The notes below the pieces were generated by a model. It ran no database searches. It saw only the letters and a program-made list of their open reading frames with translations, and had not been told where the DNA came from. A DNA stretch of 33,418 bases, taken from NCBI GenBank assembly GCA_029624815.1, contig JARSSH010000009.1, positions 1 to 33,418 on the forward strand, read 5' to 3'. The first letter of the stretch is position 1. Every line of letters starts with the position of its first letter. The position numbers and the translations under genes are program-made. The stretch is from Candidatus Competibacter sp. GTDB lineage: Bacteria; Pseudomonadota; Gammaproteobacteria; Competibacterales; Competibacteraceae. Shown one piece after another: positions 1-33,418 of this stretch.

Positions 1-197
1 AGTCAATAGCTTAAGATCATTTTGAGACAAATTCAGCGAGGGTTTGCGAGGTTGTTAATTAGCGTTTTGAATGGCCATGCATGAGTGGCGACGTTTCCGG
101 CAGAATTCTATGAATGAGCAACATTATCAATATGTTGCGAGTTGCGCATTAGAATATTAGGAAATTCTAATATACACCGTGCGATGGCAAGGGTTTT
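1..197. other. Left flank or outermost left end, no gene seen
   Basis: No convincing gene is visible. The stretch is AT-rich compared with the coding part. It holds two inverted repeats: GCAACAT at 118-124 with ATGTTGC at 132-138, and TTAGAAT at 149-155 with ATTCTAA at 164-170. It also has a copy (69-85) of the motif found in the terminal repeats. Whether this is host DNA or the outermost part of the prophage left end cannot be settled, because no target duplication was found. Confidence 0.5.
69..85 (+). repeat. Extra copy of the end motif (GAATGGC-N5-ATGAG)
   Basis: The sequence GAATGGC, five bases, ATGAG appears here, at 213-229, and inverted at 33364-33380, always with a five-base gap. 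Mu-type ends carry several transposase-binding sites, so this may be an outer or secondary site. The match is short, and function is inferred from position only. Confidence 0.45.
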
Positions 198-244
198 TGG
201 CGTTGACGCCCCGAATGGCAACAGATGAGATTGATTCTTGTTTG
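198..244 (+). repeat. Left terminal inverted repeat, probable transposase site
   Basis: The block at 209-244 begins CCCCGAATGGC and ends ATTCTTGTTTG. It matches the reverse complement of 33349-33384 over 36 bases with a few mismatches. In both copies a TG dinucleotide lies exactly 11 bases outside the CCCC, at 198-199 here and 33394-33395 (as CA) on the right. Mu-type elements end in TG...CA, so 198 is a candidate terminal base. The five bases outside do not match on the two sides, so the exact terminus stays uncertain. A small palindrome GGCGTTGACGCC lies at 199-210. Confidence 0.6.
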
Positions 245-270
245 GAGGGGGGTTTTAGCCGGATTGGGGA

Positions 271-350
271 ACCACTTGACAACCACTTGACAACCGACTT
301 GACAACCGACTTGACAACCACTTGACAACCACTTGACAACCACTTGACAA
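271..350. repeat. Seven tandem TTGACA-containing repeats, 11-12 bp period
   Basis: TTGACA occurs at 276, 287, 299, 311, 322, 333 and 344, in units CCACTTGACAA (11 bp) or CCGACTTGACAA (12 bp). The period is about one DNA turn, so any bound protein would sit on one face. TTGACA is also the sigma-70 -35 consensus, but no good -10 sits 17 bases after the last copy. It could be an array of operators, a transposase or host-factor binding array, or a transcriptional enhancer for the gene at 450. It is not a CRISPR, because there are no spacers. Confidence 0.75.
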
Positions 351-415
351 CCCGCTGATAAGGGAACGCGGCGCGTTTCAGCTTAAAAATATGGGAATAA
401 ATGAAATGTCCTATG

Positions 416-435
416 CTATCAGTAGGTTCTGATAG
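416..435. promoter_or_regulatory. Inverted repeat just before the exported-protein start
   Basis: CTATCAG (416-422) and CTGATAG (429-435) form a perfect 7-bp inverted repeat with a 6-base loop, ending just before the Shine-Dalgarno stretch of the gene at 450. A TATGCT -10-like box overlaps it at 412-417. It may be an operator or a 5' leader hairpin. Confidence 0.4.
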
Positions 436-449
436 AAGAGGGGCACAAA

Positions 450-1010
450 ATGCAAAAACCCATTTCATTGTTATTGTTCATCGCGATTTCCACGGCATTC
501 GCTCAAGCGCCGCCCATATTGGTGCCTGTTGATGATGTCACGCGGTTGGTAAGCCCGGCCAATCGCACTCCATCCCCCCGTACTCTTCCTCATGCCCCCG
601 CGTCGCCACGCTTGACTGCGCCAGCGCAGAATCAAAAATCGGGGATGACGCCGGAAGAGGTTGAAATGTTCCGTAAAGCGGAAGAGCGAGGACGGCGCCA
701 AGCGTTGGAGCAATCGAAAACGCAAACGTCAATCTCGCCCGACAAGAAAGAGTCGTGCAGAAAGATCGGGTTGTTCGCCAAGAGCATAGCTGAGGCCCGC
801 CAGAAAGGCGTCCCTCTTCATGTGGCAGAGGCTGGAGTGGGGGTTATTCTTGGAAAACACACAACCCCAGATGGGCTTAAGTTTGCTAAGGACGTTGTAA
901 GGTCAGTATATGCAAACAAATTAACCACGGAAAATGCGTCCGAGATTACTGCGGCATCCTGTGAGGTGATGGTGTTTGTTGGAACCCTGATGGAAAGCGA
1001 CAACAAATGA
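450..1010 (+). CDS. Exported protein of unknown function, left-end cargo
   Basis: The protein is 186 aa. Residues 1-19 form a clear Sec signal peptide (MQKPISLLLFIAISTAFAQ), so it should act in the periplasm or outside the cell. Residues 20-95 are proline-, glutamine- and charge-rich and look disordered. A C-terminal helical region follows, with two cysteines (in KESCRK and AASCEV) that could form a disulfide. This Cys-helix-helix-Cys layout resembles small secreted proteobacterial proteins of unknown role. A GAAGAGGGG Shine-Dalgarno precedes the start. The gene lies between the prophage end and the repressor and is transcribed toward the convergent repressor gene. That is the place and type expected of a lysogenic-conversion gene rather than a phage replication gene. 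I do not recognise a named family. Confidence 0.75.
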   Translation: MQKPISLLLFIAISTAFAQAPPILVPVDDVTRLVSPANRTPSPRTLPHAPASPRLTAPAQNQKSGMTPEEVEMFRKAEERGRRQALEQSKTQTSISPDKKESCRKIGLFAKSIAEARQKGVPLHVAEAGVGVILGKHTTPDGLKFAKDVVRSVYANKLTTENASEITAASCEVMVFVGTLMESDNK

Positions 1011-1060
1011 AGGTCGAGTCGGTCTGGATAGGAGGCGCGTCACTGAAAAAAAGAATAACG

Positions 1061-1405
1061 TCATCCCCCTCTCTTTTTCACTTCGTATTCCCCCGGCGGT
1101 TCCGCTGTCGCAAAAGCAGTCTGTTCGATGATTTTCCTCCCCTTCTCGTCGCTATGCCGGTAATTGTCGAGTAGCGCCGCCTCCCTGCTGGGCAGCCGTT
1201 CCACCGAACGCTGGCCAGTGATGATGTATTGCACATCTGCCCCCGCTGCTGCGATAGCCGCCAAATAAGCGCTATCAGGCGCTCTTTTGTCCTGTTCGTA
1301 GTTGATCTGGGCAAGTTTCTTTAGGCCGCCAATTGCCGCGAAATCGGTTTGATTGAATCCCAAACGCTCTCGCTCTTCACGTAATCGCTCGCCTTGAGTT
1401 TTCAT
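1061..1405 (-). CDS. XRE-family phage repressor (c-like)
   Basis: The protein is 114 aa with an N-terminal helix-turn-helix at about residues 4-60 (RLREERERLGFNQTDFAAIG, then a second helix pair), typical of Cro/C1-type DNA-binding proteins. The C-terminal half has a conserved phage-repressor tail (DVQYIITGQRS) and a short charged end. It lacks a LexA-like protease domain. It is divergent from the early operon, with 67 bp between the two starts, and should repress the early promoter to hold lysogeny. No clear Shine-Dalgarno precedes its ATG, so it may be leaderless or weakly translated. Role is inferred from family and position; the fold call is confident. Confidence 0.82.
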   Translation of the reverse strand: MKTQGERLREERERLGFNQTDFAAIGGLKKLAQINYEQDKRAPDSAYLAAIAAAGADVQYIITGQRSVERLPSREAALLDNYRHSDEKGRKIIEQTAFATAEPPGEYEVKKRGG

Positions 1406-1421
1406 GTGAATAAAAAGACTA

Positions 1422-1450
1422 TTGACAAGTTCTCGTTTGAATACCAGAAT
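1422..1450 (+). promoter_or_regulatory. Probable early promoter
   Basis: TTGACA (1422-1427), a 17-base gap, then CAGAAT (1445-1450) gives a good sigma-70 promoter pointing into the early operon. The predicted start of transcription, near 1457, falls inside the dyad at 1451-1480. Confidence 0.6.
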
Positions 1451-1480
1451 AGGCTCATTGTACTAGCCAACGATGAGCCT
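1451..1480. promoter_or_regulatory. Dyad operator between repressor and early genes
   Basis: AGGCTCAT (1451-1458) and ATGAGCCT (1473-1480) are perfect inverted arms. The arms extend inward with one more mismatch-tolerant block (ATTGT versus ATCGT). The dyad lies just downstream of the predicted -10 and covers the first possible ATG of the Ner-like gene. It is the best candidate binding site for the repressor or for the Ner-like protein. Confidence 0.65.
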
Positions 1481-1700
1481 GCCGACGATGAAAACCTCAG
1501 AAAACCAAAAGGATATGGACTTCAAGGAGCGCCTCCGTAAGCGGGGAGATAGTTTGCGTGCCTGGTCGCTGCGCAATGGTTTTGCGCCGCGTACAGTGTA
1601 CGTCACCATCAAGCGTTGGGGGAGTCGAACCGACCGCCAACCTCACGGCGGTTTTGGGCGTCAGATCATGGCCTTGCTACGGAAAGAAATGGCAGGCTGA
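1473..1700 (+). CDS. Ner/BcepMu gp16-like DNA-binding regulator
   Basis: The protein is 75 aa from the first ATG. Its core (RGDSLRAWSLRNGFAPRTVY followed by a short basic stretch) matches the small helix-turn-helix proteins found just before the transposase in Mu-like phages, called Ner in Mu and gp16 in BcepMu. It probably down-regulates early and repressor promoters. The start is uncertain: ATG 1473 lies in the operator and has no ribosome site. ATG 1515 gives a 61-aa protein whose N terminus fits the family better and has AAAAGGAT just upstream, though very close. The stop is one base before the transposase ATG, so translation is probably coupled. Confidence 0.72.
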   Translation: MSLPTMKTSENQKDMDFKERLRKRGDSLRAWSLRNGFAPRTVYVTIKRWGSRTDRQPHGGFGRQIMALLRKEMAG

Positions 1701-1701
1701 C

Positions 1702-4005
1702 ATGGATGTGTGGCTGGAAGTGGCGGATGTTGTCGCCGCGGTCGGGATCAGCAGGCAAGCCGTTCGTAAACGGCTTGCTTCCCTCGTTGTCCGCAAGGTT
1801 CCCGGCGTTGGTCATGCCGGTGTGCGATTGCAACTCCTCCTCTCCAGTCTTCCGGCCGCCTGGCAAGCCGCTTACTGGCAAAAACAAGGCGATTCGGCGC
1901 CGTCCGCCGTTCAGAATGAAACGATCCAGTCTCTTTCTGAAACGCACCCCGCTGTTTCCGAACCGATTCCCGATCCCGACGCCCGTCCCCTGCGTGGCGC
2001 CTTGATTCCGATTTCCTCCACTCCCTTGCCCAAAGCCTCCAGCCCTGGAGGTCCCGTGACGGTTCGCCCAGCGCCCACCGATCCAACGGGTTCCAGCCCC
2101 CCGCCGCCTGACGCGCGGATGCCGGCCTTGTCTTCCGCGCGGGCGGTTTCGGGTTCCGTCCGCGCCGCTTCCGGCGACGCTTTGACGCCGGCTTTTTCTG
2201 CCAACGACACGGCGCACCTCAAGGACTGGCAGCGCCGCTGTCTGGATGCCCGCCTGGCCCTGCTGCAAGACCTGGATCGACGGATGCTGATGCAAACGAC
2301 CGCCCGCGCCGCGCTGGACAGCCTGATCGCGGATGCGCACGCCCAGCAATTGCCGGTCGAACTGCAAGCCCTGGTGCCGGTCGCCGCCCGCAGCGGCGAA
2401 CTGTCGCGGCGCACCCTCACGCGGTGGGTGGCGGAACGCGCCCAAGGCTTGACGCAACTGGCCCCGCAATCGATGGAGCGCTTTCAGCAAGTGCCGGTCT
2501 GGGCCGGCCCCTTGCTCAAGCTCTGGCAGCGCCCGCAAAAGCCCGCCCTGAAATGGGCGCTGGCGGAATTGGCGATGCCGGACGGCGCCGAACTGCCTAG
2601 CTACAGCCAAGCTCGGCGCTTTTTGAAGAAAATGGATGCGGTGGATCGGGAGCGGGGCCGCATGGGGCCGCGCGAATTGAAGAATATCCGCCCCTACCAG
2701 CGGCGCGACGCCTCCTACCTGTGGCCCGCCGAAATCTACTCGATGGATGGGCACAAATTCGATGCCGAAATCGCCCATCCCTTCCACGGGCAACCGTTCC
2801 GCCCGGAAATCACCACGGCGATCGATGTCGCCACCCGGCGGTTGGTCGGCTGGTCGGTGGCGCTGGCCGAATCCAGTCTGGCCGTGCTCGATGCTCTACG
2901 CCATAGCGTCGAAAACGCCGGCATTCCAGCGGTTTTGTACGTGGACAACGGGTCCGGCTACGTCAACGCGCTGATGGAAGACCCCGCCACCGGCTTCATG
3001 GCGCGGCTGGGCATCACCAAAAAACACTCCATGCCTTACAACTCGCAAGCGCGGGGGGTCATCGAGCGTCTCCATCGCACGGTGTGGGTGCGATTGGCCA
3101 AGGATTTCGCCACCTACATGGGCGCGGACATGGACGATGAAATACGCAAGCGCGTCCACAAGATCACTCAGCAGGACATCAAGGCGGTCGGCCGTAGCCG
3201 GCTGTTGCCGCAATGGCCCGATTTTCTGGCGCGCTGCGAAAAAGCGGCCGCCGATTACAACAATCAGCCGCATTCCAGTCTCCCAAAAATCATCGACGCC
3301 GCCACCGGCAAGGTCCGGCACCAAACGCCGAACGAAAGCTGGGCGGAATTAACCGCCACCCATCCTGAATGCGTGGTCGCCATTGCGCCCGACGAAGTGG
3401 CGGATCTGTTCCGGCCCTACAAAACCGGCATCACCCGCCGAGGTCAGGTGCAACTCTTCGGCAATGTCTATTACAGCGCCGACCTCAAGGGCTTTCACGG
3501 CGACACGGTTTTTATCGGCTACGACCTGCACGACCCCAGCCGGGTCTGGGTGCGGGATCGCAATCAGCGGCTGATCGCCGTCGCGCAATTGGACGGCAAT
3601 AAAAGCAGCTACATGCCGATTTCCGCCCTGGAGCACGCCCACCGCACCCGCGCGAAAGGCCGAAAAGCCCGATTGGAGCGGCGCATGGACGAAGTGCAGC
3701 TCGAATTGCAGGGCAGTCGCCCGGTGATCGAGGGGCGCGACGCCACGCCCGAGGAAAAACAGATGACCGCCGACACGCTGGCGCGCATCGCGGCGGAGAA
3801 CGCTCCACCCCCACCGGCCGACCCCAATGCGCGTCCGGCCCGGTTCACCACCGACTTGGAGCTGTGGCGCTGGGTCCAGGATCACCCGGACCTCGCCACC
3901 GCGCAAGACCGCTCCTATCTCGATGACTGCCTGAAGAGTTCCACCTTCCGGCTGCAAGTCGAGATCGAGGAGCAAAAAAAAAGCCGCGTGAGTAACGCGG
4001 CGTGA
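1702..4005 (+). CDS. Mu-like DDE transposase (MuA homologue)
   Basis: The protein is 767 aa and should cut and join the phage ends for integration and replicative transposition. The start at 1702 directly follows the Ner stop and begins MDVWLEVADVVAAVGISRQA, a MuA-type N-terminal winged-helix DNA-binding domain. The same frame is open upstream to 1558 but overlaps Ner and lacks family similarity. Residues 80-170 are a proline/serine-rich linker. The integrase core has D349 (SMDGHKF), D415 (YVDNGSGY) and E455 (GVIERLHRT). A beta-barrel domain follows, and a charged C terminus that in MuA contacts MuB and ClpX. The catalytic triad is intact, so the enzyme looks active. A run of nine A and a hairpin lie at the 3' end. 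Confidence 0.95.
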   Translation: MDVWLEVADVVAAVGISRQAVRKRLASLVVRKVPGVGHAGVRLQLLLSSLPAAWQAAYWQKQGDSAPSAVQNETIQSLSETHPAVSEPIPDPDARPLRGALIPISSTPLPKASSPGGPVTVRPAPTDPTGSSPPPPDARMPALSSARAVSGSVRAASGDALTPAFSANDTAHLKDWQRRCLDARLALLQDLDRRMLMQTTARAALDSLIADAHAQQLPVELQALVPVAARSGELSRRTLTRWVAERAQGLTQLAPQSMERFQQVPVWAGPLLKLWQRPQKPALKWALAELAMPDGAELPSYSQARRFLKKMDAVDRERGRMGPRELKNIRPYQRRDASYLWPAEIYSMDGHKFDAEIAHPFHGQPFRPEITTAIDVATRRLVGWSVALAESSLAVLDALRHSVENAGIPAVLYVDNGSGYVNALMEDPATGFMARLGITKKHSMPYNSQARGVIERLHRTVWVRLAKDFATYMGADMDDEIRKRVHKITQQDIKAVGRSRLLPQWPDFLARCEKAAADYNNQPHSSLPKIIDAATGKVRHQTPNESWAELTATHPECVVAIAPDEVADLFRPYKTGITRRGQVQLFGNVYYSADLKGFHGDTVFIGYDLHDPSRVWVRDRNQRLIAVAQLDGNKSSYMPISALEHAHRTRAKGRKARLERRMDEVQLELQGSRPVIEGRDATPEEKQMTADTLARIAAENAPPPPADPNARPARFTTDLELWRWVQDHPDLATAQDRSYLDDCLKSSTFRLQVEIEEQKKSRVSNAA
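3974..4001 (-). terminator. Minus-strand intrinsic terminator inside the transposase 3' end
   Basis: GCCGCG (3983-3988) and CGCGGC (3996-4001) form a 6-bp GC stem with a 7-base loop. Read on the minus strand, it is followed by nine T (3982-3974), the textbook intrinsic terminator form. It would stop leftward antisense transcription. On the plus strand no T tract follows. The sequence also encodes the last residues of the transposase. Confidence 0.5.
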
Positions 4006-10502: not shown

Positions 10503-10703
10503 TTGATCCATTTTAACTTGGCAACCGGTTGGTTTTTCGTCTGCCTGGTCGCGTCGGTGGTGGTGATCGGCAACGTGCTTCCACCACTCGGGCTCTCGTG
10601 GTGGTGGTCGCTGATCATCTTTGTCGTCGGAGCCCTGCCTATTGGCTGGATGTTCATCCGCCTGTTTTTCGCCATGCGGTCTTACCAGGAGTACCCACAC
10701 TGA
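10503..10703 (+). CDS. Small membrane protein, TTG start
   Basis: The protein is 66 aa from TTG 10503, with AGGAG seven bases upstream overlapping the previous stop. Two transmembrane segments are visible (about residues 8-28, FVCLVASVVVIGNVL, and 32-55, WWWSLIIFVVGALPIGWMF). It could be a second holin or antiholin. An in-frame ATG at 10452 is inside the previous gene and less likely. Confidence 0.6.
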   Translation: MIHFNLATGWFFVCLVASVVVIGNVLPPLGLSWWWSLIIFVVGALPIGWMFIRLFFAMRSYQEYPH

Positions 10704-11885: not shown

Positions 11886-12425
11886 ATGCCGCGCGCACGC
11901 CACCCTGACGCCCTGGACGGCAACAACGGCTATCAAAAAAATATCCGCGACGAGGTGCGGGCGCTGTACGTGCATAGCCATCTCAATATTCCGCAAATCA
12001 GCGACCGGCTGAACCTGCCAACCCGCACGATCCACCGCTACCGCGCCAATGCCCGCAAGGACGGCGACGATTGGGAGGACGCGCGGCTATCGGCGCTGGT
12101 TGCCGGGCAAGGCTATCAAGCCGCTGTCTCGCAAGTCCTGGAAGGGCTGCTGAAACAGTCGCAATGCGTCATGCAGGCGATCAACGAAGACGAAACCCTC
12201 GACCCAGAAAAGAAAATGTCGATGCTGGCGCAACTGGCGTACAGCATGAACATGGCGCGAAAGGCCGCCGAGGGGCTGAACCCCAAAATCAGCAAGCTGA
12301 CGGTGGCGCTGGAAGTGCTGAACCTGCTGACGCGCCACATTCGCGACGAGCATCCCGAGCACGCCGCCGCCTTCCTCGACATCCTGCAACCGTTCGGCAC
12401 GGAACTACGGCGGCGCTATGCCTAG
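11886..12425 (+). CDS. Small terminase-like protein (Mu gp27, DUF1804)
   Basis: The protein is 179 aa. An N-terminal helix-turn-helix (VHSHLNIPQISDRLNLPTRT, then HRYRANARKDG) is followed by a helical oligomerisation part. This matches the DUF1804 family that sits before the large terminase in Mu-like phages and recognises packaging DNA. It starts one base after the previous stop and overlaps the large subunit by 8 bases. Confidence 0.88.
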   Translation: MPRARHPDALDGNNGYQKNIRDEVRALYVHSHLNIPQISDRLNLPTRTIHRYRANARKDGDDWEDARLSALVAGQGYQAAVSQVLEGLLKQSQCVMQAINEDETLDPEKKMSMLAQLAYSMNMARKAAEGLNPKISKLTVALEVLNLLTRHIRDEHPEHAAAFLDILQPFGTELRRRYA

Positions 12426-14079
12426 GCTCTCGACCGCCGCCCTGGAATTCCAGGCACAACTGGACGCGCTGGCAGACGATCTGCGTCGGCATATCGAAAC
12501 CGATTGCCAGGCGTTCCCGCTGGACGCGGCGGCCACCTCGACGCGGCGCGCGCGGGTCATTGCCGGGGCAGACGGCTTCAAGTTCTTCTGCCAGACCTAC
12601 TTCCCGCACTACTGCACCGCCGATCCGGGCATCCTGCACGATTTTCTGTTCGTGGCGTTGCCGGCCCTGGTGGACGATCCGCGCGGGCGCAAGCTGGCCC
12701 TGGCCGCCCCGCGAGGCGAAGCCAAGAGCACCATCGCCACCCAATTGTTCACGCTCTGGTGCGTGGTTACCGCCCGCAAGCCCTACATCGTCATCGTGAT
12801 GGATGCACTGGATCAAGCGCTGCCGATGCTGGAAGCGATTAAGGCGGAACTGGACAGCAACCCTCGACTGCAACAGGATTTCCCCGAAGCCTGCGGACAG
12901 GGCCGGGTCTGGCAACAGCGGGTCATCCTCACCACCAACAACATCAAGGTCGAAGTCTTCGGCAGTGGCAAGCGGATGCGCGGCTTGCGGCATGGCCCGC
13001 ACCGGCCCGGCCTGGTGCTGCTCGACGATCTGGAAAACGACGAAAACGTCCGTAGCCCGCAGCAACGCGACAAGCTGGAAAACTGGCTAAAAAAGACCGT
13101 GCTCAAACTGGGCGCGGCGGATGATAGCCTCGACGTGGTCTACATCGGCACCTTGCTGCACTACGACTCGGTGCTGGCTCGCACCCTCAAGCGCCCGCTG
13201 TGGGAAAGCCACGTCTTCCGCGCGGTGTTGGACTGGCCGCACCGCATGGATCTCTGGGAGCAGTGGGAAGAAAAACTGCTGAACGAGAGCGAAGAGGCTG
13301 CCGACGCCTTCTATGCCGACCGCCGCGCCAACATGGACGCGGGCGCGCGGGTGAGTTGGCCGGCGCAACGGCCGCTGTTGGCGCTCATGAAAGTGCGAGC
13401 GCGTGATGGTCACGCGGCTTTCGATTCGGAACTGCAAAACGACCCGCTCAACAGCGAAGACGCGCTGTTCCGCCAGATTGCTTGCTGGGTCGAGGAGCCG
13501 CGCGGCGGCCTGTATTTTGGCGCGTGCGACCCCAGTTTGGGAAAATCCGGCGCCAGCCGCGATCCCAGCGCTATCCTTGTCGGCAGTTTTAACCGCGCCA
13601 CCGGCGTTCTCGATGTCGTCGAGGCGCGCATCGCCCGCCGGCTGCCCGACAAGATCATCGAAGACATCATTGCCCTGCATGCCCGCTATCACTGCCTGTT
13701 GTGGGGCGTCGAGGCGGTGCAGTTCCAAGAATTTCTGCGTACGGAATTGGTGAAGCGCAGCGCCGCGCGCGGCCTGCCCGTGCCCGCCCGTCCCATCGTG
13801 CCGCACGCCGACAAGCTGCTGCGGATCGAGAGTTTGCAGCCGCATGTCGCCAACGGCCTAATCCGGCTGCATCCCAGCCAGGCCACCCTGCTGGAACAAC
13901 TGCGGCATTTCCCCTTCGCAGATCATGATGACGGCCCGGATGCGCTGCACATGCTCTGGACGCTGGCTACCGGTTCAGGGGCGTGGTTGGGCGCGATTCA
14001 GACCACCAGCCAACTCCAAGGCGCAATGGTCGGCTGGGGATCGGTGCCGGGCGATGGCTCGGTCTGGGCCAATTTTTGA
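12418..14079 (+). CDS. Large terminase subunit (Mu gp28-like)
   Basis: The protein is 553 aa: an ATPase motor plus nuclease that packs DNA into heads. A Walker A-like APRGEAKST lies at residues 97-105 and Walker B LLDD at 201-204. The nuclease half carries D371 (GACDPSLGK), E432 (WGVEAVQF) and D508 (DDGPDALHM), an RNase H-type metal triad. Both activities look intact. In Mu-like phages packaging starts in the prophage and includes host DNA at the ends. Confidence 0.95.
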   Translation: MPRLSTAALEFQAQLDALADDLRRHIETDCQAFPLDAAATSTRRARVIAGADGFKFFCQTYFPHYCTADPGILHDFLFVALPALVDDPRGRKLALAAPRGEAKSTIATQLFTLWCVVTARKPYIVIVMDALDQALPMLEAIKAELDSNPRLQQDFPEACGQGRVWQQRVILTTNNIKVEVFGSGKRMRGLRHGPHRPGLVLLDDLENDENVRSPQQRDKLENWLKKTVLKLGAADDSLDVVYIGTLLHYDSVLARTLKRPLWESHVFRAVLDWPHRMDLWEQWEEKLLNESEEAADAFYADRRANMDAGARVSWPAQRPLLALMKVRARDGHAAFDSELQNDPLNSEDALFRQIACWVEEPRGGLYFGACDPSLGKSGASRDPSAILVGSFNRATGVLDVVEARIARRLPDKIIEDIIALHARYHCLLWGVEAVQFQEFLRTELVKRSAARGLPVPARPIVPHADKLLRIESLQPHVANGLIRLHPSQATLLEQLRHFPFADHDDGPDALHMLWTLATGSGAWLGAIQTTSQLQGAMVGWGSVPGDGSVWANF

Positions 14080-16033: not shown

Positions 16034-18106
16034 ATGCGTCGCGCCCTTTCCCTGCTGCCGCTGGCCTTGGCGACGAGTGTCGCCTGGGCCGGGCTGCTGA
16101 CCACGTTTGCTTGGGATGCCGATCCAGCGTGGCCAGTCGGTACCGCCGTCGAGCTTGAAGCCAATGGGGTCAATGCCGGCGGGATCACCGATGCCCAGCA
16201 TACGCTTGATGTCCCTGTGTTGCCTGGGGGAGTCATTGCGGCGCGGGCGCGGGCGGTTCCACCATCGGGATATCAATGCGGAGAACCGATCGGCCCATGC
16301 CCACCGTCCGCGTGGTCTACGCTGGCGCAAACCCTGCCGGCCACTCCGTCTGGGCTGTGGGGGCGGTGGACACGTTTGGAGAGTCCACCCATGACCATCG
16401 CGCGGCGCGGCAGTACTGCTTACTCGGTTCAGTGGCTTAACAGTTCTAGTGCGGTCATTACCAAAGAGCCATCGGTCCAAGTCGGAGATATTATATTTAT
16501 TGGAGTTTCCTCTTACTCGAACGAGGGCTTCAACGCAGGAGGCGCAGTCTCAATCTCGGGGTTCTCTGTCGTGGGGGGTGCTGGGGTCGCCTACGCAACC
16601 TATGGTGATGACGGAGCCTCCAAGGGAATCGTTTTTTATCGCGTGGTAGACGGTACTGAGGGGGCGTCTTTCACGATCAACACCAATCCGAATAGCGGCG
16701 CCTATCCATACGGTTCGGCGGTACTGCTTGCTTTTTCCGGCAGTTCAGTGTCGATTGAGGCGTTCGGCACGACAGACAACGCCAGTGGCACCAACCCCAG
16801 CGCCCCCAGCGTCACTGCCGCGGGTAGCAATACCTTGTTGTTGTCGTTTTATCTGTATTCAGACCCGGCCGCATTTACCGCGCCGACTGGATCTGACGGG
16901 TCATTCGCAAATAGCCCGCAGAACACCAATGGGTCGGCGGTATCGTGGGATGCCATCGCATCGTCTGGCGCTACGGGGGTGCGAATCGCCACGTTGGGGG
17001 GCTCTCGGGACTGCCTGGGATTCTCTGTATTACTGAAAGAAACGGCCGGCGGATCGGCGGTGACACTGCCCGGTATATCTGGGGCTGGCGCCATCGGGAC
17101 CATCGCCGCGAGCGGTGGCGCAACCAAAACGCCGACTGGCGTCGCTGCTGGCGGCGCGGCTAACAGCCTCTTGCTATCGGGCGGCGCGGGGAAATTGCTA
17201 TTAGGCCTGTTCGGGACGGGTGGCGCGGGCTCGGTTGGCGCGCATGGCGGCGCGGGGAAATTGCTATTAGGCCTGTTCGGGACGGGTGGCGCGGGTTCGG
17301 TTGGCGCGCATGGCGGCGCGGGGAAATTGCTATTAGGCCTGTTCGGGACGGGTGGCGCGGGTTCGGTTGGCGCGCATGGCGGCGCGGTTGTTGCGTCGGA
17401 AGGGGCAGGGGCTGGCGGCGCGGCGGGGGCCCTTTCGCTCTCGGCCGGGGCTAATGTGACCCCTATCGGCATCTACGTCACTGGGCTGGCGGGCGCTGTC
17501 TTTGCCAGCGCGGGCGGCAACGTCAATGTCAGTCTGTCCGGCCTGGTGGCCGTGGGCAATACGGGCGCGCTGGCGCTTTCCGGGGGTGCGCAACCGACGA
17601 TTTCCGGTCTGGCGGCCCTCGCCGGCATTGGCGTGGCGACCGCGCATGGCGGCGGGACGGCCGCGACAGCCGGTGTTGCGAGTTCTGGAGCGGCCGGCGC
17701 GCTTTCGCTCTCGGCCACGGCTCTGCTGAATCTGCTGGGCGCATCGGGCGCGGGCACGGCGGGATTGCTGGCGCTGGCGGCCGATGCGGCGGTGACACTG
17801 ACCGGCATCGGCGCCAATGGGCAAATAGGCACGATTACCGTTTCGGCTGGCGCCACCGCGTCAATCGCTCTGTCGGGCGTCGCCAGCATCGGCCAAATCG
17901 GTACGGTCTCGCTATCGGCGGATGCGCTGACGCTGTTGACGGGCATTCAAGCGCTGGGGCAGGCCGGATTCTTGCGATTGGTTGAGCTGATTACCCCGGC
18001 TGGCCGATTGCTGTTGGTCGAAAGCGAGGGGCGTTTGCTGTTGATCGAGCCCGAAGACCGACTGCTCTCGATCCAGTCGGACGGTTCCAATCTGAACATC
18101 AATTGA
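16034..18106 (+). CDS. Glycine-rich repeat protein, probable fibre/appendage
   Basis: The protein is 690 aa. It has a signal-like N terminus (1-19), an Fn3-like domain (20-100) similar to the previous protein, and a beta-sandwich domain (about 115-340). A long Gly/Ala-rich region (about 345-650) is built of roughly 22-residue units with the pattern GVxAxGxxGTxxLSA. A terminal block repeats GRLLLVESEGRLLLIEPEDR. Such repeats are common in phage tail-fibre proteins and may form a beta-solenoid. It sits before a fibre-tail adaptor, supporting an appendage role, though the signal peptide is odd for a virion protein. Confidence 0.7.
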   Translation: MRRALSLLPLALATSVAWAGLLTTFAWDADPAWPVGTAVELEANGVNAGGITDAQHTLDVPVLPGGVIAARARAVPPSGYQCGEPIGPCPPSAWSTLAQTLPATPSGLWGRWTRLESPPMTIARRGSTAYSVQWLNSSSAVITKEPSVQVGDIIFIGVSSYSNEGFNAGGAVSISGFSVVGGAGVAYATYGDDGASKGIVFYRVVDGTEGASFTINTNPNSGAYPYGSAVLLAFSGSSVSIEAFGTTDNASGTNPSAPSVTAAGSNTLLLSFYLYSDPAAFTAPTGSDGSFANSPQNTNGSAVSWDAIASSGATGVRIATLGGSRDCLGFSVLLKETAGGSAVTLPGISGAGAIGTIAASGGATKTPTGVAAGGAANSLLLSGGAGKLLLGLFGTGGAGSVGAHGGAGKLLLGLFGTGGAGSVGAHGGAGKLLLGLFGTGGAGSVGAHGGAVVASEGAGAGGAAGALSLSAGANVTPIGIYVTGLAGAVFASAGGNVNVSLSGLVAVGNTGALALSGGAQPTISGLAALAGIGVATAHGGGTAATAGVASSGAAGALSLSATALLNLLGASGAGTAGLLALAADAAVTLTGIGANGQIGTITVSAGATASIALSGVASIGQIGTVSLSADALTLLTGIQALGQAGFLRLVELITPAGRLLLVESEGRLLLIEPEDRLLSIQSDGSNLNIN
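17183..17386 (+). repeat. Three near-identical 66-bp tandem units
   Basis: Inside the glycine-rich gene, a 66-bp unit encoding 22 residues (starting GAGKLLLGLFGTGGAGSVGA) occurs three times, with GGGGAAA markers at 17188, 17254 and 17320. Only one base difference (GGGC versus GGGT) is seen, so expansion is recent. Copy number could vary by slippage and change appendage length. Confidence 0.9.
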
Positions 18107-25542: not shown

Positions 25543-25682
25543 CGCTGGCCTTGTGCCGCGAGCATGGGCGTTTTCTGTTCGAAGCGCTGCCCGACCGGTT
25601 TCCGGGGCGGCGCTTGACTCCGGTAGAGGCGCAGGTGTGGGGGCTGTACTACAACGATCTGAACGCACAACGCCATGGCTGA
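25500..25682 (+). CDS. Chaperone T-like extension reached by -1 frameshift
   Basis: The -1 frame from the G-rich stretch at 25500-25506 encodes ALYRDPTVRLALALCREHGR and then GRRLTPVEAQVWGLYYNDLN, about 59 residues, ending at 25682. This frame lacks a good ribosome site of its own; an ATG at 25452 gives non-family residues first. Tail chaperones G and GT of lambda are made by the same kind of slip. The slip site G GGG GAA is not a perfect heptamer. Confidence 0.6.
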   Translation, partial: GGSAALYRDPTVRLALALCREHGRFLFEALPDRFPGRRLTPVEAQVWGLYYNDLNAQRHG

Positions 25683-28443
25683 CCTGACCACCGCAATCAA
25701 AATCATTCTGTCCGGCGGCGATACGGTCAGCGCCGGATTGCGCGCGGTCGGCGGGGCGATGGGCGATCTGTCTGAGCGCGGGAAAAGTCTGACCCAGCCC
25801 TTCGCGGATGCAACATCCGGGATTTTGAAGTTCGAAACCGGCGTCCTTTCGGTCGGCGCGGCGGTGACGGGGTTTGCGATTGGGGCAGCCGACAAGTTCG
25901 ACGCCTCGTTTCGAGAAATCGCGACGCTGACCGATCAGTCGGTGGAAGGCTTGGGCGATTTTCGCCAGGCGATCCTGGATTATGCGTCCAGCTCTACCCA
26001 AAGTTTGGAGAACATTACCGGCGCGGTTTACAACGCGATTTCCGCTGGCGTTGATTATAAAGATTCCCTCAGTTTCATATCGGCGGCGGAAAAGTTGTCG
26101 GTCGCCGGCAAGGCCGAATTGAATCAAACCGTATTGGCGTTGGTGAGTACGCTGAATGCCTACGGTGCATCCACGGATCAGGCCGGCAAGTACGCCGACA
26201 TCTTCTTCCAGGCCGTCAAACAGGGCCAAACCACCTTGCCGGAGCTGGCGTCGTCTTTATCAGGCGTAACCAGCACGGCAGTCTTGGGCGGCGTGTCCTT
26301 CGAACAAGTTGCGGCGGCTCTCGCTACCCTGACTGCCGCCGGAGCGCCGACCAGCGAAGCAATTACCCGCGTCAACGCTTTGTTGTCCGCCATCATCAAG
26401 CCGAGCGGCGAGGCGGCCGATCTGGCCAGAGAATTGAGCCTGCAATGGGATATCCAGGCGCTCAAATCCAAGGGCTTGTCGGGCGTGCTCGAAGACATGG
26501 CCACCAAGACCCAAGGCGCGGGCGACAAGATGGCTATTTTGACCGGTGGCACGGAGGCGCTGAACGCCGCCAATGTCCTGGCGATCAGCAGCGCCGGCAA
26601 GTTCAAGGATAATCTGGCCGCGATGGAGCATGCGGCGGGCGCGGTGGAAACGGCGTTCGGGAAAATGAAGGACGCCACCGATACGCTGGGCCAGGCGTTC
26701 ACGGTCGCGCTGATCAGCCTGGGGGCGCCCTTGCTCGATGAATTCAACGCGATCGAGGATGCGCTAGCGGAGCTGGCCAAGTCCGTTGGCACGGCGGTGA
26801 AATCGGAAGCGTTCGCGCCGCTGATCGCCGTGATCGAAACCAATCTGGGCAAGATCGCGGCGCTGATTGGCGATACGGCCAAGAACCTGCAGGCAGCCAT
26901 GAACGGCGTCGATTTCAAGCCCTTTGCGCAATCGCTACAAGGCTTATTCGATAGCGTTGCCAAGCTCTTCAACTTCGATGCGCTTTCCACCGAAAAAGGG
27001 CTGACAACGGCCATTCAAACCATCGTCAACTTGCTGACGCAGACCACCACGTATTCAACGGGCGCTTTACAGTCGATTGGCCCCTTTGTGAATAAACTGG
27101 GCGAAGTCGCGGTGGCCATTTCGACCATCGACCTCGATAAGATCGCGGCCATCGGCCAAATTGGCGGTTATGCGCTGGCGGCCAATGCGGCTCTGGGTTT
27201 GCTGGGGACATCGGCGCTGGCGATTTCCGGCGCGGCGAACGTGACATCGGCCCTGGGCACGGCGTTCGCGGCGGTCAAGGCCGAAGCGGCGGCGCTCAGT
27301 TTGGTCCTGGTCGGCGGCGGGACGGGGGGCTTGTTGGCAGCGCTGGGCACCGCCGGCATCGCGGGCGCGGTCGGCGTCCTCAGCTATGAGGTCGCGAAGT
27401 CCACGGGACTGGGCGAATGGCTGAACGATGTGCTGGCGCCGGATTGGTTGACGGGGAACGGATCGACGCTGGGTACCGCCATTGCGGATGTCGCCGAAAA
27501 AATGGGGCTGCTCGGTGGGGCGGCCGAACAGGCGCAACCCAAGCTCGCGGCCTTGCCGCCTTATTTCGACGCCGAGGCCAAGGCGGCGGCGGCTACCCGC
27601 GCGGAAATCGACGGCTGGCTCGATGCGCAAGAAGCCGCAGCGAAAAAGGCGGCGGATACCGGGCCGGAAATCGCCAAGCTGACAGAACATTTCCGCGCGC
27701 TGGGATATGTCTATGATGCCTTGACAGGCACGCTGACCAAGTTGAACGTGGAGCAGGCGAAAAACAACGATACCTTGCCCGATGGAGTTAGGGTGTCACT
27801 CGCGTATCAATCCGCGGGGGCGCAAGCCGGCATTTACGCCACGGCGCTGGAAGGCATCGCGACGCAGTATGAGCAGGTGGGAGTGAAAACCGTCAAGGCC
27901 ACCGGGGCATTCAAAGCCGTCGGCGACAGCGCCAGCGATCAGGCCAAGAAAGTCGATGAGGCCACCAAGAAATCCCAGGAATACCAAGCCAAGATGGAGG
28001 AAATCGCCTCCAACGAACGGATCAAGATCATCGAGGCAAAGGTCACGCTGAATGTCGCGGAACTGGAAGCGCAGACCAAGCAAGTCGAAGCGGCCTTTGA
28101 CTCCATCAGCACCACCATCAACAGCACCGGTGACCTCATCGGGTCGCTGTTTGGCAACCTCGCCGGTGCGGACACCTTCACCAAGCTGGAAATCATTGAG
28201 CAAATCGAGGCCGAGAATAAGCGCCGCGATGCCGCGCTGGAGCTTCAGAGAAAGCTCACGGAAGCCGAGATTGAAAACGTCCGGGCGAAGACGCGCGCTC
28301 TGGATCGTGGCGACTCGCTAATCAAGATTGATGGAACAGGGCTAGCCCCTCAACTTGAGGCGTTCATGTGGGAGGTTTTAAAGGCGATTGAGGTGCGCGC
28401 TAATGCGACATATCTTGAATATTTGCAGGGATTGCCGGCGTGA
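25675..28443 (+). CDS. Tape measure protein
   Basis: The protein is 922 aa and sets tail length (about 0.15 nm per residue, so some 140 nm). The N-terminal TP901-type region (residues about 60-330) is clear: KFDASFREIATLTDQSVEGL, SAAEKLSVAGKAELNQTVLA and LLSAIIKPSGEAADLARELS. The middle has hydrophobic stretches (about 495-585) that may enter the host membrane, and the C-terminal third is helical coiled coil. The start overlaps the chaperone stop. Confidence 0.93.
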   Translation: MADLTTAIKIILSGGDTVSAGLRAVGGAMGDLSERGKSLTQPFADATSGILKFETGVLSVGAAVTGFAIGAADKFDASFREIATLTDQSVEGLGDFRQAILDYASSSTQSLENITGAVYNAISAGVDYKDSLSFISAAEKLSVAGKAELNQTVLALVSTLNAYGASTDQAGKYADIFFQAVKQGQTTLPELASSLSGVTSTAVLGGVSFEQVAAALATLTAAGAPTSEAITRVNALLSAIIKPSGEAADLARELSLQWDIQALKSKGLSGVLEDMATKTQGAGDKMAILTGGTEALNAANVLAISSAGKFKDNLAAMEHAAGAVETAFGKMKDATDTLGQAFTVALISLGAPLLDEFNAIEDALAELAKSVGTAVKSEAFAPLIAVIETNLGKIAALIGDTAKNLQAAMNGVDFKPFAQSLQGLFDSVAKLFNFDALSTEKGLTTAIQTIVNLLTQTTTYSTGALQSIGPFVNKLGEVAVAISTIDLDKIAAIGQIGGYALAANAALGLLGTSALAISGAANVTSALGTAFAAVKAEAAALSLVLVGGGTGGLLAALGTAGIAGAVGVLSYEVAKSTGLGEWLNDVLAPDWLTGNGSTLGTAIADVAEKMGLLGGAAEQAQPKLAALPPYFDAEAKAAAATRAEIDGWLDAQEAAAKKAADTGPEIAKLTEHFRALGYVYDALTGTLTKLNVEQAKNNDTLPDGVRVSLAYQSAGAQAGIYATALEGIATQYEQVGVKTVKATGAFKAVGDSASDQAKKVDEATKKSQEYQAKMEEIASNERIKIIEAKVTLNVAELEAQTKQVEAAFDSISTTINSTGDLIGSLFGNLAGADTFTKLEIIEQIEAENKRRDAALELQRKLTEAEIENVRAKTRALDRGDSLIKIDGTGLAPQLEAFMWEVLKAIEVRANATYLEYLQGLPA

Positions 28444-33276: not shown

Positions 33277-33348
33277 CCTTTATTAAGATTCAGTAATCAA
33301 TTGACGTCCTCCCTGCCCTGCACTATTGCGGGGCGCGCCGAATGGCAA
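33277..33348. other. Right end spacer
   Basis: No gene is seen. A stem GCCCTGC (33315-33321)/GCGGGGC (33328-33334) with a six-base loop follows the last gene after a short AT-rich stretch. Without a T tract it is a weak terminator at best. A direct GAATGGCAACA (33340-33350), shared with the left end, then begins. Confidence 0.4.
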
Positions 33349-33395
33349 CAAACAAGAATGATTCTCATTGTGCGCCATTCGGGGTGTAAATATCA
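33349..33395 (-). repeat. Right terminal inverted repeat, probable transposase site
   Basis: CAAACAAGAAT to GCCATTCGGGG (33349-33384) is the inverted partner of 209-244. Together with the direct CCGAATGGCAACA just before it (33338-33350), the right end forms an imperfect palindrome of about 45 bp, so two motif copies face each other. A CA at 33394-33395 is the candidate terminus. Confidence 0.6.
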
Positions 33396-33418
33396 ACCGG
33401 CGGGGCAAGCCCTTCATG

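Follow-up and report, generated by a model that had tools for sequence, protein, structure and literature searches.

The described systems closest to the repeats considered here are those of phage Mu and of the D3112 group. In Mu, the operator/enhancer is an array of repeats between the repressor gene and ner, and a common form of operator is a set of phased direct repeats placed upstream of a gene. The Mu packaging (pac) site was reportedly mapped by Groenen and van de Putte in 1985 to about positions 32–54, and the packaging cut falls roughly 100–200 bp to the left of pac. For the D3112-type phages, transposase sites L1–L3 and R1–R3 are described as repeats at the two ends, with R1 facing opposite to R2 and R3 (PMC4378225), and the small terminases of pac phages are described as displaying HTH motifs in a ring (PMC4737164).

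The window, by which we mean the whole 33,418 bp stretch of DNA analysed, is the entire contig C9 of a 3.63 Mb genome in 70 contigs (one assembly), and it carries a Mu-like prophage whose transposase has as its best deposited-phage matches, among those listed, the D3112/DMS3-type Pseudomonas phages (47% over ∼440 residues). Its features are as follows.

1–52: left flank, part of a repeated element; positions 1–54 are 100% identical to C56:503–556 and C27:15065–15118
53–54, + strand: best candidate left terminus (TG), with TGGC at positions 20–23 from the TG
58–97, + strand: end site L1, GAATGGCNNNNNATGAG at 69 (motif and matrix)
202–241, + strand: second left end site, GAATGGCNNNNNATGAG at 213 (motif and matrix); 203–244 is an 84% inverted match to the right end
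270–352, + strand: TTGACA array, units AACC(G)ACTTGAC (Tandem Repeats Finder: period 11, 7.4 copies, 97% matches)
333–362, + strand: candidate weak sigma-70 promoter, TTGACA (333), 18 bp, GATAAG (357); 10/12 matches, the −10 lacking its final T
416–435: 7-bp inverted repeat CTATCAG/CTGATAG, just 5′ of the ribosome-binding site of ORF 450
450–1010, + strand: ORF of 186 aa, possibly accessory; weak phrog_2315 match (1.5e-7), signal-peptide-like N-terminus by eye
1061–1405, − strand: repressor-like gene (phrog_8; HTH_3 slightly below the Pfam cut-off)
1422–1450, + strand: early-promoter candidate from a promoter scan, TTGACA, 17 bp, CAGAAT
1473–1700: small gene
1702–4005, + strand: Mu-type DDE transposase, 767 aa
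4034–4825: B protein
11886–12425, + strand: DUF1804 protein (PF08822, 4.1e-42), probably the small terminase, immediately 5′ of the large terminase
12418–14079, + strand: terminase large subunit (phrog_38, 3.1e-129)
25675–28443: tape measure
33329–33368 (+ strand) and 33391–33352 (− strand): two right-end sites in opposite orientation (motif and matrix)

Position 53 is the best candidate for the left terminus, because TGGC stands in the same register from this TG as TGGC/TGAC does in the L181, L135 and DMS3 ends (by eye) and because a repeated element occupies everything to the left of 53. The match at 1–54 falls within a longer sequence common to contigs C56 and C27, probably an IS, and from these matches the prophage appears to sit within a copy of it. 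An exact GAATGGCNNNNNATGAG is found three times genome-wide, always in this contig, at 69 (+), 213 (+) and 33364–33380 (−), and a matrix that adds a fourth copy, at 33340 (+), to these three finds only the same four sites above 9 bits in the window; they score 33.4 to 51.4 by construction, and the next best window position scores 8.7. To judge from motif and matrix together, these four are most likely the prophage end sites. The right-end pair face opposite ways, as R1 does relative to R2/R3 in the D3112 group (PMC4378225). A left terminus at 198 was rejected, since the exact site at 69 would then have no explanation although the motif occurs only three times in the genome, and a host repeat as the origin of the end sites was rejected because all three copies are in this contig. 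The right terminus is probably at ∼33395. The 23 bp beyond it (33396–33418) have no other match in the genome, as searched with their first 16 bases, and they do not extend the left-hand repeated element; the junctions on the two sides may derive from separate copies of the element, or the right end may be incomplete.

A preliminary description of this DNA had reported seven TTGACA hexamers at 11–12 bp spacing, and both exact matching and Tandem Repeats Finder confirm them, on the + strand at 276, 287, 299, 311, 322, 333 and 344 (span 276–349). The spacings are 11, 12, 12, 11, 11 and 11 bp, and the two of 12 bp arise from one extra G (CCGACTTGAC versus CCACTTGAC). Because the mean is 11.33 bp, the further claim that the boxes lie one helical turn apart holds only approximately: at 10.5 bp per turn, successive sites would rotate by ∼28 degrees, drifting ∼170 degrees round the helix over the whole array. 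The placement next to the left end was right in substance, although the array lies at ∼218–300 in phage coordinates (left end = 53), past the left end sites and before ORF 450–1010, and not at the terminus itself. Seven copies are far beyond chance, as 200 first-order Markov simulations of the window gave at most two TTGACA per 74 bp on one strand; window-wide there is no clear excess of the hexamer (15 matches against 10.3 expected, a number reached by 11 of 100 shuffles). The units are near-identical with their spacers included, the inserted G in two copies being the sole difference, which suggests that a recent tandem duplication of one 11-bp unit made the array. The spacers vary no more than the hexamers do, so the array bears no mark of selection acting on TTGACA alone or of long-standing selection.

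The preliminary description also considered the arrangement rare and proposed a search of related prophages, and on both counts the array is confined to this phage among the sequences covered. A two-unit array pattern is present in one of 96 genomes (own and relatives), namely the phage's own genome, and in no stretch of viral_contigs, and TTGACA pairs at 10–13 bp amount to one isolated pair (L103) in 343 loci (3.03 Mb, many overlapping, with the window's own L016 skipped). No TTGACA array is seen in the stretches from the DUF1804-bearing phages and loci with visible left ends (D3112, DMS3, RcapMu, RR1-B, Mannheimia 3927AP2, L070, L074, L076, L086, L091, L135, L141 and L181). Because no close relative that retains its left end came out of these searches, the absence is informative only at ∼50% transposase identity. 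A transposase scan for close relatives found one viral contig, which lacks its left end, and none in genome_contigs; the closest transposase relative, L057 (62% over residues 168–766), is on a contig that starts inside the transposase gene, and the top locus of a large-terminase scan (best 80 of at least 594 loci) is on that same contig. The DUF1804 protein gave no close relative in viral_contigs and matched 136 phage records below 60% identity, and window positions 1–1700 have nothing similar in plasmids (near mode). For comparison with the host, 20 stretches totalling 354,327 bases contain nine arrays of period 9–14 and score at least 50, of which eight are in stop-free frames of 204–776 aa. 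The ninth, GACTTATCCACA × 3.1 at G000:C3:6171–6206 (L284), has a frame of 81 aa and carries TTATCCACA, which we take to be a DnaA box; it is possibly the host replication origin. With eight arrays in long frames and a ninth carrying a DnaA-box-like motif, phased arrays outside coding sequence are uncommon in the host DNA sampled.

Phased arrays near the left end do occur in other Mu-like phages. A profile of seven transposases matched 422 viral and 174 genomic loci, of which the best 80 of each kind were collected, and a search of these for 6-mers repeated at 10–12 bp brought out a cluster of loci with four copies of [TC]GGGA[TA] at 10 bp intervals. This ladder lies ∼1.5–2.8 kb upstream of the transposase match; in most of the loci, judged by eye, it stands immediately inside the left terminus. 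Positions 32–67 of phage Mu (NC_000929, L217) read CGGGAG, TTGGAT, CGGGAT and TGGGAT at 32, 42, 52 and 62. The ladder is also present in L084, L102, L103, L111, L126, L134, L153, L156, L157, L170, L173, L176 and others, and in Mu it presumably covers the location of the packaging site. The earlier statement that Mu-like phages have no described equivalent of the TTGACA array therefore needs qualification, as Mu and many relatives do have a phased left-end array, and it holds insofar as motif and position differ. Our literature searches, which were not aimed at the motif and had the older Mu packaging papers outside their scope, turned up no published description of the ladder in the parts of the sources they covered.

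The ladder is associated with the type of small terminase. We scored it over at most 3,200 bases upstream, with a threshold of 34 out of 40, in those prophages with a placeable terminase, which was assigned to its prophage by hand from contig coordinates; the threshold was set at the same step at which the second set was searched for terminases, and the first set was scored by it afterwards. In the first set, 18 of 26 prophages with a Gp27 (PF11985) terminase reach 34 and none of 21 with a DUF1804 terminase does, the left end being visible by eye in only nine of these 21 (DMS3 included), so that several may lack it. The second set gives 9/16 for Gp27 and 0/24 for DUF1804, for a total of 27/42 versus 0/45 (Fisher 4e-12); the two sets share phages, with eight near-identical pairs in all, and when near-identical loci are collapsed the counts become 26/39 and 0/40 (Fisher 1.6e-11). 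Where nearly the same terminus is combined with different terminases the ladder tracks the terminase, with scores of 38 in L084 (Gp27) and 27 in L074 (DUF1804). Before the count we dropped L185 (score 37, neither terminase family); L186 (31) and L139 (34) were dropped from the first set because their Gp27 match could not be confidently placed in the same prophage, and 10 of 50 were dropped from the second, including L201 (36) and L142 (short upstream).

Fifteen of the 42 Gp27 prophages score under 34 (eight in the first set, seven in the second). Six of them (L081, L088, L093, L113, L121 and L133) start at apparent gene boundaries and have probably lost the left end; L083 scores 32, and the ladder of L092 lies outside the scored 3,200 bases, where it was found at 9–11 bp spacing by a rule not applied to the DUF1804 group. 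Several of those in the second set show a degenerate ladder by eye. In the left ends of L194, L195, L204, L207 and L158, all sub-threshold, degenerate repeats phased at 10 bp can be made out by eye at the ladder position, for example [CT]GAG in L194. L203 scores 34 and is beaten by one of its own shuffles (35), and its near-identical partner L204 scores 30. On the DUF1804 side, L070 scores 33 and L148 and L154 score 31, each above its own shuffles. The simplest reading would make the ladder the pac site, a row of repeats bound by the Gp27 small terminase; the association could also have arisen because end and terminase descend together from a common ancestor. The association may outweigh the TTGACA array in importance, as it makes the choice of packaging start in transposable phages directly testable.

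The window phage has the other type of terminase. The protein encoded at 11886–12425, the only one searched against PF11985, has no match listed to that family; it belongs to DUF1804, and its placement, together with analogy to Mu gp27 (annotated as terminase small subunit), makes it probably the small terminase. The lack of a GGGA ladder is as expected for a phage with a DUF1804 terminase: the best Mu-type score in the window is 29/40, at 641 inside ORF 450–1010, a value reached by three of 40 shuffles, and there is none at the left end. The two kinds of array have in common that they consist of short same-strand direct repeats, about one turn apart and near the left end. Nonetheless, the GGGA ladder has about four copies at 10 bp with freely varying spacers, and starts at 32 in Mu with a Gp27 terminase, whereas the TTGACA array has seven near-identical copies at 11–12 bp and lies ∼218 bp inside a phage with DUF1804. 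On ladder and terminase alike, we reject the TTGACA array as an array of the Mu GGGA type.

We tentatively favor the reading that the TTGACA array is regulatory DNA for ORF 450–1010, to which we give a probability of only about 0.36, and place it narrowly ahead of a neutral minisatellite. Counting only ORFs of 50 aa or more, ORF 450–1010 is the first on the + strand downstream of the array; it stands after the left end sites and before the repressor gene, is convergent with the latter, and would require its own promoter. It is possibly an accessory (moron) gene. No match to it was found in phages or, by a scan whose reach is limited to close relatives, in viral_contigs, so it is conceivable that it is a poor gene call. 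All seven hexamers are perfect −35 boxes reading toward it, and a promoter role is possible for the array, which the preliminary description had suggested, among other things, might be a promoter decoy. The −35 element of ORF 450–1010 would most likely be supplied by the copy at 333 with GATAAG at 357, which is the best −35/−10 pair in the scanned region (256–449) and, at 10/12, equals the early-promoter candidate at 1422. This −10 has the A at its second position and lacks the T at its sixth when sought at 16–18 bp; a −10 matching at more than three of six positions accompanies just one of the seven hexamers, and a stricter promoter scan lists nothing at the array. The remaining copies would serve as spare or competing −35 elements or as regulator contacts, altering the firing rate of the promoter in the lysogen, and the array as a whole would then be non-coding regulatory DNA of the left-end region that arose by recent tandem duplication of the 11-bp unit. 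The rarity of non-coding phased arrays in the host sample counts for such a regulatory role; the uniform spacers count against it, and as relatives with the array were not found, conservation cannot be used. If the array does tune an accessory gene, it would offer a compact natural example of multiple −35 elements in front of a single gene.

The array might instead have no function, replication slippage having grown a single 11-bp spacer unit that contained TTGACA by chance, a reading that we hold only slightly less probable. Like bacterial minisatellites, the array consists of near-identical head-to-tail units with the spacer included; the units differ by one extra G in two copies, the spacer is as conserved as the hexamer, and no array was seen in the relatives examined; a second copy of this phage, in which the number of units could be compared, was not found. 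It differs in being non-coding, of a kind rare in the sampled host DNA, and in carrying a perfect −35 hexamer: only one of the nine host arrays of this size is non-coding, and that one resembles a protein-binding array, while a random 11-bp unit would contain a given hexamer on either strand only ∼0.5% of the time by a post hoc estimate. An operator array for the phage's own repressor (1061–1405) or another regulator, binding also at the early promoter, is unlikely. TTGACAA recurs at 1422, in the short gap that separates the repressor gene from the gene after it, but TTGACA there is accounted for as the early −35 box, and the only further match in the window to the 12-bp unit with at most two mismatches is far off at 10515. 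Like the Mu operator/enhancer, the array is found inside the left end and ahead of the early genes; the Mu repeats lie between repressor and ner, whereas those of the window are on the far side of the repressor gene. A phased operator-like arrangement is seen in L058, where six TGCTAG at 11 bp (2565–2625) directly precede an ORF starting MTEQIALRFPDG; its product looks to be a ribbon-helix-helix protein and the TGCTAG array looks to be of operator type.

It is improbable that the array is a pac site recognized by a ring of HTH domains formed by the DUF1804 small terminase, and we think equally little of the idea that the array is the counterpart of the Mu-type packaging ladder, with motif, spacing and place rewritten when DUF1804 replaced the Gp27 terminase. 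In favor of a packaging role, Mu and its relatives with Gp27 carry a phased left-end array at the reported location of Mu pac, array and terminase type being associated, and the window phage lacks a GGGA array and has a terminase of another family. However, the DUF1804 relatives show no TTGACA array in the stretches examined and 0/45 reach the GGGA threshold, the position at 218–300 is far from 32–67 in Mu, and a cut ∼100–200 bp to the left would fall inside the phage. Given the relatives and the position, packaging is possible but is not suggested by kin, and the view that the array is simply a Mu-type pac is weakened. Accessory transposase-binding sites acting in end synapsis, another proposal of the preliminary description, are very improbable. 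The array begins ∼30 bp after the second left end site, and the D3112, DMS3 and L135 left ends read TTTTGACAC where the window has GAATGGC; but the phage has its own sites of the D3112 type (L1–L3/R1–R3, PMC4378225) at 58 and 202, and its four end sites read GAATGGC and score 33–51 on their own matrix, against a best of −7.7 for the array, a value still within the top 0.35% of window positions. Least credible of all is a coding repeat or an assembly artefact. An open frame of 103 aa on the minus strand spans the array, and the window is an assembled contig; since a reading frame is not preserved at periods of 11 and 12, open frames across the array do not represent a protein repeat, and units with and without the extra G divide the array into distinct stretches, which would argue against a collapsed loop. 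On these comparisons of sequence, the array most likely either controls the neighboring accessory gene or has no role at all.

Elsewhere in the window, a 66-bp repeat at 17180–17387 (3.2 copies, 99%) lies within ORF 16034–18106, where it forms in-frame protein repeats of 22 residues.
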